A stretch of 64,000 bases of DNA from Aurantibacter crassamenti (GTDB lineage Bacteria > Bacteroidota > Bacteroidia > Flavobacteriales > Flavobacteriaceae). The notes under the pieces were generated by a model. It saw only the letters and a list, made by a program, of their open reading frames with translations. It was not told the DNA's origin and did no database searches. Location of the stretch: contig NZ_JAFBGM010000002.1 in NCBI RefSeq assembly GCF_016811105.1, forward strand, positions 62,001 to 126,000, given 5' to 3'. Shown one piece after another: positions 15,885 to 31,259 of this stretch. Made by a program: the position numbers and the translations under genes. Every line of letters starts with the position of its first letter. The first letter of the stretch is position 1.

Positions 15885-16060
15885 GTTACTTATTCGTGCA
15901 GCTAAGGGTAGTGGGAGTGAAGAAGCACTAACTTTTGTACAATGCACTTAGCAAAAACTTCAGGTTTACTATTTTTCTCGATTAATTTAAAACCAAAATC
16001 GGAAAGATTTTGCAACAATCTAAAAATACATAAACCTTTCGAGTAAGCGCGATGTTGATA
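15885..16060 (-). repeat. Intergenic repeat, long form, copy at 16.0 kb
   Basis: Contains the family core (minus strand TTACTCGAAAGGTTTATG then TATTTTTAGATTG, 16016-16045) and a second block at 15890-15960 (plus strand GCTAAGGGTAGTG, GGAGTGAAGAAGCA, ACTTTTG) also present at 20.7 kb. Confidence 0.6.
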
Positions 16061-19612: not shown

Positions 19613-19630
19613 TTTGTCTTTTTCTAATTG

Positions 19631-19858
19631 ACACAACGATCTTGTAAAGGGCTCGTAGTGTGTAAATTATAAAATAATTTTTAGAATATCACTGAACAGA
19701 ATTTTTATATTTTGGTTTTTCTTTTTTTTTTGAGCAAGAATTGAATATTTCGCTGACACGTAATTTTCAATTTTGCAGACCTGCCGGCCGGCTTCATAAA
19801 AATACACAAACCTTTCGATTAAGCCCTGAGCTCGAATTGTTTATAGATTGTGTTATGC
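19631..19858 (-). repeat. attC-like repeat, copy at 19.7 kb
   Basis: About 228 bases bounded on the minus strand by GCATAAC (19852-19858) and GTTGTGT (19631-19637), an inverted pair. Inside are the core CGAAAGGTTTGTGTATTTTT (19799-19818) and, at the far end, TTTTATAATTTACACAC, which is shared with the 26.6 kb copy. Confidence 0.6.
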
Positions 19859-26590: not shown

Positions 26591-26787
26591 GCACAATGGT
26601 CTTGTATATGGTTTGTTGCGTGTAAATTATAAAATTATTTTCGGTTAAACACAAGCCGAATTTTTAAATTTTACTTATTATCTTTTTTAATTTAAAAGCC
26701 AAATCAAAAGATTTGGCAGACTTTGCAAAAACACCTATCCATTAGTGTTAGCAACCACTTGTGCAATTTTTATAAACATTGTTAACC
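26591..26787 (-). repeat. attC-like repeat, copy at 26.7 kb
   Basis: About 197 bases bounded on the minus strand by GGTTAAC (26781-26787) and ATTGTGC (26591-26597). It includes TTTATAAAAATTGCAC at the start, an AAATC/GATTT hairpin in the middle and TTTTATAATTTACACGC at the end, the last shared with the 19.7 kb copy. Confidence 0.6.
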
Positions 26788-26791
26788 GACG

Positions 26792-27505
26792 TTATTTTTT
26801 TTCAGTTTCCTTTATTTGATTTAATTCGGACTCTTTTATAGTGTCTTTAACTTTAAATTTTGATTCAATAACAATTTCGGTCTTCGGTTTATTTTCTACT
26901 TTATTATTTCTAAATGACATATTAATAGTCGAAATGAAAAAAAGCACGAAGAATATTAAGCCATTTCGAATCAATATAAATGAAGCAAATGTAAAGTTTG
27001 ATATTTTTATATTTATTAAATCGTTTAAAGACTTACTTTTTATTAATTCTCTTAATAGGAGAGAAGGTTTTTTTTCTTTTTTAATAACAAACTTATTTTC
27101 TTGAAATTCAATAATGGTTTGATGAATATTAAATTCTTTAATATTTAAAGTTTGAAGAGCACGAATACCACTTATTACAAAATGGATAATACTTAAAACT
27201 ATAAATATTATCGGCAATATATGATGAGTATTTTCTTTTATATAACTCAGAGAAAAAGTTATAATTGTTATCGCTAATGTTATAATAAATAATAAAGATT
27301 TTGCTTTATCTTCCAATTTGATTTTTCGTTCAATTTGTTTCTCAATTTCTGTTTTTAATTTTAAAATATATTCATCCTTTTCTTCCTTAATTTCTGAAAT
27401 ATCAATTTGTGCTTTTTCTTGTTTATGATAGATTTCAGAAACCTTTTTATTACAATAATCAGCATAAAAACCTGGAATTATTTGATGTTTTATAAATTTC
27501 ACCAT
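26792..27505 (-). CDS. Three-helix membrane protein of the graspetide-like locus
   Basis: A 237-residue protein. Residues about 20-68 are a charged coiled-coil-like helix (EKAQIDISEIKEEKDEYILKLK), followed by membrane helices near 70-90 and 96-117 and a third near 172-195, then a Lys/Glu-rich tail. No enzymatic motif is visible. It starts 2 bases from the stop of the ATP-grasp ligase gene, so it is very likely in the same operon. It might export or sense the modified peptide, or be its target or immunity protein; none of these can be shown from sequence. Confidence 0.6.
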   Translation of the reverse strand: MVKFIKHQIIPGFYADYCNKKVSEIYHKQEKAQIDISEIKEEKDEYILKLKTEIEKQIERKIKLEDKAKSLLFIITLAITIITFSLSYIKENTHHILPIIFIVLSIIHFVISGIRALQTLNIKEFNIHQTIIEFQENKFVIKKEKKPSLLLRELIKSKSLNDLINIKISNFTFASFILIRNGLIFFVLFFISTINMSFRNNKVENKPKTEIVIESKFKVKDTIKESELNQIKETEKK

Positions 27506-27507
27506 AT

Positions 27508-28455
27508 CTAATTCTTATTCAAGGAATTAACAATTAATTCATCAATTTTAAATCCAGTGTTTTGTTGAAGCCAAGACCATTCGCCTGTTGGGTTAATTTC
27601 AATAAAATAATAATCATTGTTGTGGTAAATCAAATCGATGCCCCCAAATTTCAGATTGAATTCTTTTAAAAATTGAGAACACAATTGTTTAATTTTTTTA
27701 GGTAATTCTATTATTTCATAGCTTAATTCATTCTTATATCTTCTCCAATCAATATCAATATTTTCATTATCTTTTTTAAAAATTTTTACGGCAATAACCT
27801 TGTCTTCAATAACTGTAACTCTAATGTCTGTTTTCGGCACTAAACCTTGTTGAGTGAAAAATGGTGATAAAAACTTATTTTCTTGAAGTTTCTTTGTTTC
27901 ATATAATTCGGTATAAACAAAACCTTCTTTTTCGTCCAAATTTATTATTGCTGTATCAATAGATTTAACCGCAATGTATTTTGTGTCTAATTTTTTAGTC
28001 AGGTTTGAAATCAATGTTTGCGGCACTTTAAAGCCTATTTTATTCGCAATAAAAAGTTGGTATGGTTTTATTTCAGCTTTGTAAATATCTACGGGATTGT
28101 TTAACCAATTTATATTTTCGAAAACGCAAATTGAACGAACAAATGCAGTCCATTGACTCCTTATTAATTGTTCTTCATCGCTTATATTATCTTGAAATAT
28201 ATCTCTTAAAAAAGTAGGTGCTCTATAGTATACAGATTTTAAATTTTCATAGGAGATAGTAAATTCAATATCTTTAAAACTGCCTTTAATAATTGGAATG
28301 ATTGGGTTGAATTCAATTGTGTAATCTTTTAATTCATCCCTATTGATTCTTAAATATGGAATCTTTTGCTTATTTAACTCAACTGAAATAAAATCACTCG
28401 AAAAGTCATACCTATTGGATATTATTAATACTTTCGGAAATAGGCTTTGTTTCAT
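27508..28455 (-). CDS. ATP-grasp ligase, MvdC/MvdD-like (graspetide maturase)
   Basis: A 315-residue ATP-grasp enzyme of the kind that makes omega-ester or omega-amide links in graspetides (microviridin-type RiPPs). Landmarks in order: WLNNP (117-121) and K130 with GFKVPQTLIS (141-150) before the grasp domain; K209-T-D210-I-R212 followed by a strand; and EINPTGEWSWLQ (286-297), where E286 and N288 are metal ligands. The E-I-N-P-x-G-x-W form is characteristic of the MvdC/MvdD group rather than of RimK or D-Ala ligase. A 67-residue candidate precursor ends 2 bases before its start. Cytosolic. Confidence 0.82.
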   Translation of the reverse strand: MKQSLFPKVLIISNRYDFSSDFISVELNKQKIPYLRINRDELKDYTIEFNPIIPIIKGSFKDIEFTISYENLKSVYYRAPTFLRDIFQDNISDEEQLIRSQWTAFVRSICVFENINWLNNPVDIYKAEIKPYQLFIANKIGFKVPQTLISNLTKKLDTKYIAVKSIDTAIINLDEKEGFVYTELYETKKLQENKFLSPFFTQQGLVPKTDIRVTVIEDKVIAVKIFKKDNENIDIDWRRYKNELSYEIIELPKKIKQLCSQFLKEFNLKFGGIDLIYHNNDYYFIEINPTGEWSWLQQNTGFKIDELIVNSLNKN

Positions 28456-28457
28456 AC

Positions 28458-28661
28458 TTATTGACCCTTGTTATCCTCACCAGTTTCTATGTCCAATTTT
28501 TTTGTTGCTTGTGCTTTAAAATCCTTGGAGTTAATTAAAAGTAAATTGTTTAATTTACTCTTCCATGCTCCAAGAATATAATCGTATTCATAATCCTTTG
28601 GAGGTGTTATTTCTTTTCTTTTTTTATAAACTAATGCTTTTTGAAATAATATATGTTTCAT
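28458..28661 (-). CDS. Candidate graspetide precursor peptide
   Basis: A 67-residue peptide. The first 50 residues look like a leader (P-P-K-D-Y-E-Y-D-Y then LGAWKSKLNNLLLINSKDF), and the C-terminal tail reads ATKKLDIETGEDNKGQ (52-67): Thr53, Lys54, Lys55, Asp57, Glu59, Thr60, Glu62, Asp63 and Lys65 offer hydroxyl or amine donors close to carboxylates, as needed for ester or amide macrocycles. It is immediately followed by the MvdD-like ligase, 2 bases apart. No double-glycine or other protease site is evident. The precursor role is inferred from context and composition; cross-link positions are unknown. Confidence 0.6.
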   Translation of the reverse strand: MKHILFQKALVYKKRKEITPPKDYEYDYILGAWKSKLNNLLLINSKDFKAQATKKLDIETGEDNKGQ

Positions 28662-28699
28662 TTTTCTTCATTTTTCAAATGTACTACAAAGGTCTCGGC

Positions 28700-28814
28700 A
28701 ATGAGTAATTAAATGGGTTAGCACACAACTTTGCAAATACACACCAAGTTGGAAGTTCCGCAGGAATTTCTATAGTAGGCGAGTACTAGCAATGAATTAT
28801 ACACCGTGTTATGT
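28700..28814 (-). repeat. attC-like repeat, copy at 28.8 kb
   Basis: Minus strand begins ACATAAC (28808-28814) and GTGTATAATTCATTGCTAGT, runs through TTCCTGCGGAA and GTGTATTTGCAAAGTT, and leads into the precursor gene. Strong match in word order to the 30.0 kb copy. Confidence 0.6.
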
Positions 28815-28822
28815 AGCGTTTT

Positions 28823-29050
28823 TTAGATTGTTGTTATTCTAATTCGGTTATCCCAATCGTGGTCGTCAGACTTAACTAATTCCGCAAACAAATAAACGTC
28901 TTCTAGTCTATTCCCATCTTTATCAACCCAACGACATTTCAATTCATAGGTTTCAGGTTGCTTTCCGACAACAATCATTTTAATTCTAGTATTTGATTTA
29001 TGGTAAACTCCTTGACCAATTTCAAAATCTTCAAATTTGTATTCTCTCAT
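28823..29050 (-). CDS. Small YodC-like (DUF2158-type) protein
   Basis: A 75-residue protein. FEIGQGVYHKSNTRIKMIVVGK then YELKCRWVDKDGNRLEDVYLFAELV follows the DUF2158/YodC pattern (G-D-x-V-x-L-K-S-G-G, M-x-V, C-x-W, F-x-x-x-x-L) in a relaxed form. Such small beta-barrel proteins have no known function. It starts 9 bases after the stop of the TIR-like gene on the same strand and is probably co-expressed, suggesting a two-gene cassette. Confidence 0.6.
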   Translation of the reverse strand: MREYKFEDFEIGQGVYHKSNTRIKMIVVGKQPETYELKCRWVDKDGNRLEDVYLFAELVKSDDHDWDNRIRITTI

Positions 29051-29059
29051 AATTACATT

Positions 29060-29929
29060 TTATAAAATTTTATTAGCATCAACATCGTATCCAGCTGCTA
29101 TAAGTTCTTTTACAAGCTTGAATTTCCACATTTTTCCATCATCGATTAAATTGTATAAAACTCCGTGCAAGTCGCTTGGTAACTCTACACCACTTTCGTA
29201 AAGCGGGAAGACACTACTTCTGCCTAATTTCCCAATAAAGTAACCCATTTCTAAAATCACATTTTGTCTGGCTCTATACTTATCTTTTTCTTCTGTCTTA
29301 ACTTTACCTAAATCATCAGCTGTTAATAAAATCACTGCAAATCCGACATCCGAATGCATTTCAAATTTTTCAATTATAGTTTGTCCTTGATTTGGTTGCT
29401 CCGATAGAATGATTGGATTTAGTCCAAGTTTTTCTATAGTTCTCGCAAGGTCAGTTTTAGTGTGTTCATCGTGACCGTGTACAATAAATATATTATTTGT
29501 TTGTGTCTCTTCAGTTTTTTCAGCCATTTCAGTTGGTTCTTCTAATGTGGATTTTAGTAAATCTGACTTGCCTAATAGTTTTTTTAGATTAGTCAATTTA
29601 ACGTCAACACTTTCTTTAAAGTTGTCTAATTTACCTTTTGGTCCTTGAGCTCTTTTACCAAAACCAATGAACATCGCACATTTGTCGTATCTGTCTTTAT
29701 ATTCGTTATATTCATTATTAAATGACTGTTTTAGATATTCGGAATTATAGTCATTCCAATGATTAAAATGTTCACGATTTTTATCGAAATCCGATTGTGT
29801 TTTGACTTCAAAGTTTAAGATTTCTTGACCTTCTGCAATTCTTTCTTCAAGTTTAGAAATAAAGTCTTTCCTGTGAATGATTAGTTCTGTTGGTGGTGGT
29901 GGTGTATATTTTGCAGTTCGTTTTGCCAT
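29060..29929 (-). CDS. TIR-like nucleotide-binding domain protein (CAP12/PycTIR type)
   Basis: About 289 residues from the ATG at 29927-29929 (MAKRTAKYTPPPPTEL); an earlier in-frame ATG at 29983 lies inside a repeat element. Residues about 1-150 are a charged helical region. The C-terminal 140 residues match the TIR-like fold of PF10137: NIFIVHGHDEHTKTDLARTIEKLGLNPIILSEQPNQGQTIIEKFE, then AVILLTADDLG, then RARQNVILEMGYFIGKLGR. The glutamate in VILEMGYF aligns with the position expected for NAD-cleaving activity. In CBASS and Pycsar such domains act as effectors, but no nucleotide cyclase is present nearby, so the role is a hypothesis. Cytosolic. Confidence 0.8.
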   Translation of the reverse strand: MAKRTAKYTPPPPTELIIHRKDFISKLEERIAEGQEILNFEVKTQSDFDKNREHFNHWNDYNSEYLKQSFNNEYNEYKDRYDKCAMFIGFGKRAQGPKGKLDNFKESVDVKLTNLKKLLGKSDLLKSTLEEPTEMAEKTEETQTNNIFIVHGHDEHTKTDLARTIEKLGLNPIILSEQPNQGQTIIEKFEMHSDVGFAVILLTADDLGKVKTEEKDKYRARQNVILEMGYFIGKLGRSSVFPLYESGVELPSDLHGVLYNLIDDGKMWKFKLVKELIAAGYDVDANKIL

Positions 29930-29966
29930 ATTGTTTAAATATTGTTCAGTGTTTTTCTCAAATGCC

Positions 29967-30098
29967 ACATAACGTGTTTGCATAAGATTAGTTGCGTGAT
30001 TTATTCACTAAACTTAGCAAATACAAACCGAATAGAAAATCCGCTAGAATTTTCGTAAGTAGGCTTGCACTAGCAATTAATTTTATACGTTGTTAGCC
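29967..30098 (-). repeat. attC-like repeat, reference copy
   Basis: 132 bases with GGCTAAC (30092-30098) and GTTATGT (29967-29973) at the ends. Between them on the minus strand are ATTAATTGCTAGTG, GCGGATTTTCTATTCGG, TTTGTATTTGCTAAGTT and CACGCAACTAATC. This is the clearest member of the family and the template I compared others with. Confidence 0.65.
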
Positions 30099-30105
30099 AC
30101 AGTTT

Positions 30106-30915
30106 TTAGTACGTTGTGTTTCTAAAGTCCAACCATCTTTTTAATTCAGATTCCTTTAAAGGATGATTTTCAGAATATTTTGAAATCATACTTTTATACT
30201 TCGCAAATTGAAAAGAATCAAGTCTCGGATTTGCAATAATATCAAATTTTAAATCCTTTAATTCGGGTAAAATAAATTTTAGTCCTGATAAGTCTAAAAT
30301 TTCTTTCATAAACCCTACAATTCTGTATTCTGTTTCGTGTTTAAATGCGATGTGTTTTCTAAATGCCGAAAATTTTAATAAAGATTCCTTTTCTTTAAAA
30401 AGCATCTTATCATAATTTTGATATTGTACTGTTCCTGCAATTAGTAAATCGATTTTTGCGGTTTGGTCTTTTTGTAATTTTATCGATTCTTTTATTAGTT
30501 TTTGAAAATATTCTTGTTCAAACCTTAAAACGAATCCTGATTTTCCATAAATATCCCACATTGCAAATGATTCAACGTCATTTAAAATCCAACAACTAAC
30601 AAATCTGTGTTTCTGCTTTTGGTCAAGAGATTTTTGTAGATGTCTTAAAGCTAATATGTTATTCCTAATCATCTCGTCCCATTGACTATCGGAAATTTCT
30701 GGGTTTGCATCATCAGGTTTTGAAAGCGTTTCACTTCTGACTTTTAACTCATTAATATCGTAAGGTTCAATATTTTCAAGGTTGTCTTCGAATTTGTCTA
30801 AACGAGCAAGATAGATGCTGTTAGTTTCAAGAAAATCAACAAGTTTTTCAATTGTTAAGTATCTATAAACATACTTTTCTTTAATCTCTTTTGTATGATA
30901 AGTATCCCATTTCAT
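30106..30915 (-). CDS. DUF2971 family protein
   Basis: About 269 residues from the ATG at 30913-30915 (MKWDTYHTKEIKEKYVYRYLT); the codon at 30937-30939 is TTG. The KYVYRYLTIEKLVDFLETNSIYLARLDKFEDNLE opening, the W-x-x-x-x-E-S-F-A-M-W segment (CWILNDVESFAMWDIYG) and FKHETEYRIVGF are typical of DUF2971. Proteins with this domain are often encoded in mobile or defence regions, but their reaction is not known. Upstream on the minus strand is GTTGGGC (about 30951-30957), a good simple-site match, marking the right-hand end of the cassette-like array. Confidence 0.8.
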   Translation of the reverse strand: MKWDTYHTKEIKEKYVYRYLTIEKLVDFLETNSIYLARLDKFEDNLENIEPYDINELKVRSETLSKPDDANPEISDSQWDEMIRNNILALRHLQKSLDQKQKHRFVSCWILNDVESFAMWDIYGKSGFVLRFEQEYFQKLIKESIKLQKDQTAKIDLLIAGTVQYQNYDKMLFKEKESLLKFSAFRKHIAFKHETEYRIVGFMKEILDLSGLKFILPELKDLKFDIIANPRLDSFQFAKYKSMISKYSENHPLKESELKRWLDFRNTTY

Positions 30916-31259
30916 TCGATTGCAGTCGGTTTTTGTCAAATTGTGCCCAACAATAGGCTAAACGTACTATTCCATTTAGCTATTTTGTAGTCCTCCTACA
31001 AATCTAATGCTTTTCCGTTTCTAAAAAAACCTACTTATCAGCAGTTATAAACAGGCGCAGCGCAGCTCAAATGCCTAAATACGAATTTCTAATATTTAAC
31101 TTTTCTTAAGATAGTTTAAGGTGTTAAACCTACTTTTCTGGTTAATTTTGCAGCCCAAATAGGGGCCACAAAAAATAAAAAGCAATACAGATGCAACCCT
31201 TGGTTTTTTGAGCTGTCTATAAGCAGACAATCATTAAACAAACATTCAAAAAACAATCA
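30916..31259. other. 344-base spacer, right border of the accessory region
   Basis: No gene seen. It joins the cassette-like array to the conserved TonB receptor operon. It contains GCAGCGCAGC-type sequence near 31055, the promoter box of the receptor gene and a leader of about 100 bases rich in A with no evident structure. Confidence 0.4.
31143..31150 (+). promoter_or_regulatory. -7 promoter box for the TonB receptor operon
   Basis: TAATTTTG, an exact TAnnTTTG match, 110 bases upstream of the receptor start codon. Confidence 0.6.

Follow-up and report, generated by a model that had tools for sequence, protein, structure and literature searches.

Three genes that follow one another closely on the minus strand of the window (the whole 64,000-nucleotide stretch of DNA analysed here) raise the question of whether the small peptide encoded by the first is ring-closed by the ligase encoded by the second, and of what part the membrane protein encoded by the third then plays. 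The region had been proposed as a candidate graspetide locus. Re-reading of the ORFs gave, in the order peptide, ATP-grasp ligase and membrane protein, the three genes with 2-base spacings of the original prediction (the gaps are 28456-28457 and 27506-27507), and both the peptide tail, ATKKLDIETGEDNKGQ, and the ligase motif, EINPTGEWSWLQ, were found as they had been read. None of the 7 window proteins scanned against Pfam and NCBIfam matched a radical SAM or protease family, in agreement with the absence of a radical SAM/SPASM partner and of a protease noted earlier. Terminator-like sites in the region numbered 2 by consensus scan, as compared with 0.6 in shuffled sequences. The TIR-domain protein and the 75-aa ORF of the adjoining cassette (Table 1) are a candidate defence pair.

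Table 1. Features of the three-gene module and of its surroundings in the window
Feature	Coordinates	Strand	Basis
Candidate precursor peptide, 67 aa; leader 1-52 with the hairpin motif [YF]xxxxxGxW, core TKKLDIETGEDNKGQ at 53-67	28458..28661	-	ORF, conservation, AF2 model
Core region (residues 53-67), best-conserved stretch of the module	28461..28505	-	conservation counts
ATP-grasp graspetide-type ligase, 315 aa	27508..28455	-	ORF, family and structure-sequence matches
Membrane protein, 237 aa, three hydrophobic helices	26792..27505	-	ORF, hydrophobicity, structure model
Terminator-like hairpin 3' of the membrane gene	26698..26717	-	consensus scan
Repeat element B, 55 bp upstream of the peptide gene, 3' end of the 75-aa gene	28716..28825	.	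repeat comparison
Repeat element C, 3' end of the DUF2971 gene	29970..30107	.	repeat comparison
Weaker repeat-like stretch, 3' end of the membrane gene; similar to 19622-19729 and 15965-16048	26600..26790	.	repeat comparison
TIR-domain gene (CAP12-PCTIR_TIR; PDC-S35, E 3.4e-80), upstream of the module	29060-29983		profile match
75-aa ORF downstream of the TIR gene, adjoining cassette	28823-29050		ORF
DUF2971 gene (defence candidate PDC-S31, E 3.2e-16), upstream of the module	30106-30939		profile match

The ligase matched the NCBIfam models TIGR04187 (E 6e-51), MvdC (E 1.8e-37), MvdD (E 7e-29) and GRASP_w_spasm (E 3.3e-23). The corresponding bit scores of 173.5, 129.2, 101 and 82.5 all lie under the curated cut-offs (350, 425, 475 and 230), and the protein is therefore regarded as a member of the superfamily and of no named subfamily. 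Among ligases of solved structure it matched AMdnB (5.8e-22, aligned over the ligase length) and CdnC (1.8e-19); a match to the Pfam RimK domain was also obtained (E 8.3e-7).

Relatives were collected by scanning 84,980 species genomes with an alignment of six ligases, and the best 80 of 174 relatives were taken. These 80 genome loci, 2 viral contigs, 5 plasmids, 2 Bacteroidota-level genomes and the window make up the 90 loci referred to below, in which near-copies (L040/L075, L088/L089, L119/L129 and others) are counted separately. Viral contigs gave no match to the ligase alone; the 2 viral loci came from a viral scan. A single peptide compared with 299 genomes produced matches at E <= 1 in 76 of them; none except the window's own was better than E 0.0024, and the rest were attributed to chance. 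The module DNA of Lelliottia had no match in E. coli genomes.

Eight ligase residues (K130, K164, Q202, R212, D236, D274, E286 and N288), which we take to be ATP-grasp catalytic-site positions, were kept in 90/90 family ligases and in 16/16 other ligases; F179 and K208 are marks of the family. The MvdC/MvdD-type motif described earlier is present in the window's ligase, but to call it diagnostic was too strong, because GRASP relatives vary it: all 90 family ligases have NPTGEW, and the 16 others have mostly NPNGQW.

A peptide with the tail [TS]KKxDxExG(S)ED was found upstream of the ligase in 90/90 loci located through the ligase, which exceeds what chance would give, and in 41 of these the stop of the peptide and the first ligase start overlap by 4 bases. 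The peptides of the family are ~61-75 aa long. Each module in the loci read has one ligase; at six loci (L049-L053, L098) two tandem peptide genes, each with a full core, precede it. Among 96 peptides the tail reads ETGED in 91, ERGED in 4 (Bacillaceae) and is of the EPGSED type in 1, and 79 of the 96 have a KGE or KGQ C-terminus. The Bacillaceae peptides (L065, L068, L069, L070), with ERGED for ETGED, stop directly after the next Lys, so that the peptide may manage without Thr60 and the final two residues.

Whether the tail is the conserved part of the peptide had been put forward earlier as a test of the graspetide reading. In the 71 peptides (<80% identity) drawn from an alignment of 84 of the 96, mean conservation was 3.63 bits per position at residues 53-67 versus 1.62 at residues 1-52, which, with the tail kept at every locus, answers the test in the affirmative. 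Residues K54, K55, D57, E59, G61, E62, D63, K65 and W33 were invariant in 71/71 peptides; the leader is mostly variable. Median pairwise identity over 78 of the 90 loci was 82% for the 11-residue core, a value with a floor of ~64% since the pattern used to pick the peptides fixes 7/11 core positions, 40% for the ligase, 24% for the leader and 18% for the membrane protein. That pattern ([TS]KK.D.E.GS?ED) was defined after the first loci had been seen, and because it selected the peptides, conservation of the tail is partly by construction; the absence of any tail-less locus is not, no locus having failed.

The leader contains the motif [YF]x(3,5)GxW in 94/96 peptides. The AF2 model of the window's peptide has a helix at 4-8, a hairpin of strands 24-27 and 32-35 and a tail modelled with low confidence, and this predicted structure fits an arrangement of leader plus substrate. 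The pattern F-x(1,2)-RF, used to detect the PFFARFL of microviridins, was found in 0/96 peptides and Phhx(1,2)h in 8/96; comparison of the peptide with Pfam, NCBIfam and PHROGs gave no meaningful match.

The family tail was absent from the ORFs examined at 13 more distant ligase loci (L131-L138, L140-L144); L139 carries it and belongs to the family. Six loci (L131-L135, L137) constitute a sister family, with peptides of repeated TKTxxxxExDD-like cores, hosted by plasmids of Pseudomonas, Sinorhizobium, Croceicoccus and Agrobacterium, by a Leptospira phage and by an unverified faecal phage clone; two of them are in phage records. Gene order is the same as in the module and the membrane proteins are homologous (hhalign 98.3%, E 1.6e-14), whereas the sister cores are repeated and variable and the ligase motif is mostly NPNGQW. 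A different core beside a homologous membrane protein indicates that ligase and membrane protein were paired before the particular core arose. The leader pattern YxxxxGxW was detected by regex in L137, and in L132 with Q for G. A further graspetide-like group (L006, L007, L008, L042) has TxTxxxxE..DSDSD-type peptides, an NPNGQW ligase and a two- or three-helix membrane protein homologous to that of the module.

These comparisons bear on the possibility that the peptide is not a substrate at all and is instead a small accessory subunit of a ligase that acts, like RimK, on a different target. The RimK domain match, the scores below all graspetide cut-offs and the predicted fold of the leader could be accommodated in this way. 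The nearest relatives of the ligase are nevertheless graspetide ligases, the most conserved part of the peptide is the tail and not the folded part, and the sister family appears to keep the leader YxxxxGxW while its tail becomes TKTxxxxExDD repeats, as RiPP logic expects. We regard the accessory subunit as very improbable.

The module shares with the microviridin/MvdC-MvdD, TgmA-TgmB and grasp-with-spasm systems an ATP-grasp ligase of the same superfamily and an adjoining small precursor offering Thr/Ser/Lys as donors and Asp/Glu as acceptors. Ligase family, adjoining precursor and donor/acceptor-rich core support, at the level of sequence, what the original prediction had proposed, and the peptide is very probably cross-linked by the ligase. 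Two points go beyond that proposal: the core barely changes from phylum to phylum, and a membrane protein constantly accompanies it. Both distinguish the module from known graspetide systems, as do its single ligase and the lack of a protease, exporter, SPASM or methyltransferase partner. From microviridins it differs further by a leader without PFFARFL and by having one ligase instead of two, and from grasp-with-spasm by the lack of a SPASM radical SAM protein among the 7 window proteins and the 25 top neighbour families. Carter et al. 2026 (PMC13097080) describe 43 graspetide groups, several with unknown proteins, and report Lys-Asp links in a KxxxD motif, evidence that Lys can serve as a donor. 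The ETGED core was not mentioned in the portions of text of PMC8939145 and PMC13097080 that were covered, and the literature matches to ETGED were off topic among the matches listed.

Downstream of the ligase, the first ORF has hydrophobic segments in 89/90 loci: three at 70/90 loci, two at 12, one at 5 and four at 2. At the remaining locus, L123, it has none and an overlapping ORF has two. The description of the window's protein as a three-helix membrane protein was confirmed by its three hydrophobic segments and by the long helices of a confident model (mean pLDDT 89.5; helices 43-89, 96-121 and 147-200, with a hairpin between). The best-kept residues in the alignment of 68 of the 90 membrane proteins were E65, D66, K67 (61/62), N165, N170, R180, N181 and G182; they adjoin the membrane on the predicted cytoplasmic side, a sidedness that we infer. 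We hold with good confidence that the membrane protein is a functional partner of the other two gene products.

With Foldseek, the membrane-protein model found no counterpart at E <= 0.001 in PDB or BFVD. A VIA structural match to a helical surface protein (best Z 9.9) was rejected as unrelated, being within the noise stated for helical bundles. The PADLOC profile RTasSLATT matched 3/68 membrane proteins (best 1.6e-4, weak) and SLATT_5 matched 2/68 (best 0.054); PADLOC matches to Pycsar TM proteins were weak. A search of 345 genomes with RTasSLATT yielded one true RT-associated SLATT protein, for which hhalign against the membrane protein gave 0.1%, equal to the unrelated control, and a SLATT_5 search of 148 genomes yielded 2 weak matches under the cut-off. 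The membrane protein shares with SLATT and Pycsar TM effectors the membrane helices and a cytosolic helical part, but differs from them by its three hydrophobic segments, by the lack of a significant profile match and by the lack of an adjacent nucleotide-signal enzyme. No report pairing graspetides with SLATT was found in the literature. Makarova et al. 2022 (PMC8939145) list two unexplained membrane-protein clusters (18 and 40) frequent at graspetide loci; compared by description only, the module's protein is like them in being uncharacterised and in its position at such loci.

In a tree of 84 of the 90 family rows and 16 other ligases, the 84 formed one clade, with a support of 100/98. The rows represent 14 phylum-level groups, one of them archaeal (a MAG), and these groups are mixed on the tree: 24 changes are needed versus a minimum of 13, with 6 for Pseudomonadota, and the rows nearest to the window include a Burkholderiaceae and a Melioribacteraceae record. 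Many records are MAGs, among which single odd taxa, including the archaeon, may be binning errors. Plasmid and isolate genomes argue for horizontal transfer, though some of the mixing may be due to mis-binned MAGs. The module is sporadic, being detected by the peptide profile in 1/249 genomes of the same family, and ligase and peptide profile searches of the same-genus genome G184 found nothing. Together the comparisons suggest that the module moves between very different microbes.

Two observations support the mobile cassette of the original prediction: repeat elements adjoin the genes, and no match to 26735-29951 was reported in G184 (40 of 152 candidates scored). Repeats of 110-140 bp are located at the 3' ends of the window units. 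One of these repeats is matched at 10 places in the genome, and a 29.5-kb array on the other contig (L157/L158, C1:2998500-3028000) contains 9 copies or part-copies. In G184 such repeats occur in clusters, and the DUF6090 neighbour is far from the other flank. The window region looks like an integron-like cassette array. In the integron attC test the repeats fold no more than usual (z -1.1 to 0.4), and no integrase is next to them, none of the 4 PF00589 matches being adjacent.

Each Pfam family was represented at most 4 times, and each PADLOC family at most 5 times, among the 149 flanking ORFs nearest to the module, which indicates that the module is a self-contained unit. Defence genes were present among them (Gabija-, Septu- and Thoeris-type matches, restriction enzymes), and ordinary metabolic genes also adjoin the module; the PADLOC matches were not cleanly above those of a 64-ORF control, which also had matches and consisted of Flavobacteriaceae-level chance loci, not phylum-matched. 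Of the five plasmid loci, three have AbiE, ABC-three-component or SIR2 neighbours, one has none and one is without annotation; AbiE genes are beside the module on two plasmids, on one of them together with ABC-three-component genes, and SIR2 on a third.

Three tightly packed mobile genes in constant order, with AbiE toxin-antitoxin genes adjoining on two plasmids, could also point to a toxin-antitoxin pair, in which the membrane protein would be toxic and the ringed peptide, formed at the expense of ATP, a short-lived antitoxin. Decayed plasmid copies (L139, L160, L161, L046) showed interruption by IS66/IS630, reduction or a split ORF. One plasmid has an intact-looking membrane gene and only a remnant of the ligase, although its promoter may be lost; another has the peptide and part of the ligase with no membrane gene annotated; in one copy the membrane ORF is split. 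Such copies argue against the membrane protein being simply toxic, though silent ones would be indistinguishable, and suggest that toxin-antitoxin logic does not apply. We consider this explanation improbable.

To our knowledge, most predicted graspetides are without known function. Characterised microviridins are protease inhibitors (PMC13039773), and the module could likewise produce an exported antimicrobial or protease-inhibitor graspetide, with general proteases removing the leader and the membrane protein serving as exporter or immunity protein. A three-helix protein could confer immunity, and Makarova et al. (PMC8939145) proposed a transport role for the cluster 18 protein at transporter-less thuringinin loci. 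The same paper indicates, however, that warfare cores diversify even beside one ligase type, whereas the core described here is nearly invariant over 14 phylum-level groups. Furthermore, the 25 commonest Pfam families in the 149 flanking ORFs included no peptidase or ABC transporter family, and three hydrophobic segments with a large cytosolic part would be unlike known exporters. Export is in our judgement rather unlikely.

Action within the producing cell is the most likely alternative, because no dedicated protease or exporter accompanies the module and the core hardly varies; we favour it by a modest degree. In the mechanism that we propose, the ligase would bind the leader (helix and YD...GxW hairpin) and, with ATP, would join Thr/Ser and Lys side chains to Asp/Glu in TKKxDxETGEDxKG. 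The ringed peptide would then work inside the cell on a constant partner, the operon's own membrane protein, which it may gate or lock. As the least conserved component (18%), this protein is a poor fit to the invariant target of the core, unless a small site binds. The unit may be a mobile conflict cassette, for which a role in defence or addiction is a tentative suggestion: the defence-type neighbours hint at it, without a clear excess over the control, and the decayed copies count against it. On balance we incline to a leader-guided graspetide that acts intracellularly with a membrane partner, perhaps as a conflict cassette; that it is an intracellular conflict system in which a ring-locked peptide, nearly invariant in bacteria and possibly archaea, gates its own membrane effector is the more doubtful form of this reading.

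The core surpasses its own enzyme in conservation, is apparently shared horizontally and is paired with a membrane protein, so that one peptide, one enzyme and one partner provide a sharp handle on the system. Its pattern is a short DNA-level signature with which further members can be found, and the different core of the sister family permits swap experiments. The near-identical tail in distant lineages hints at one common job. Should the ringed peptide control the membrane protein, intracellular immunity or addiction would be linked to RiPP chemistry, and should it do so by gating, a RiPP would act as an intracellular switch instead of a secreted weapon.
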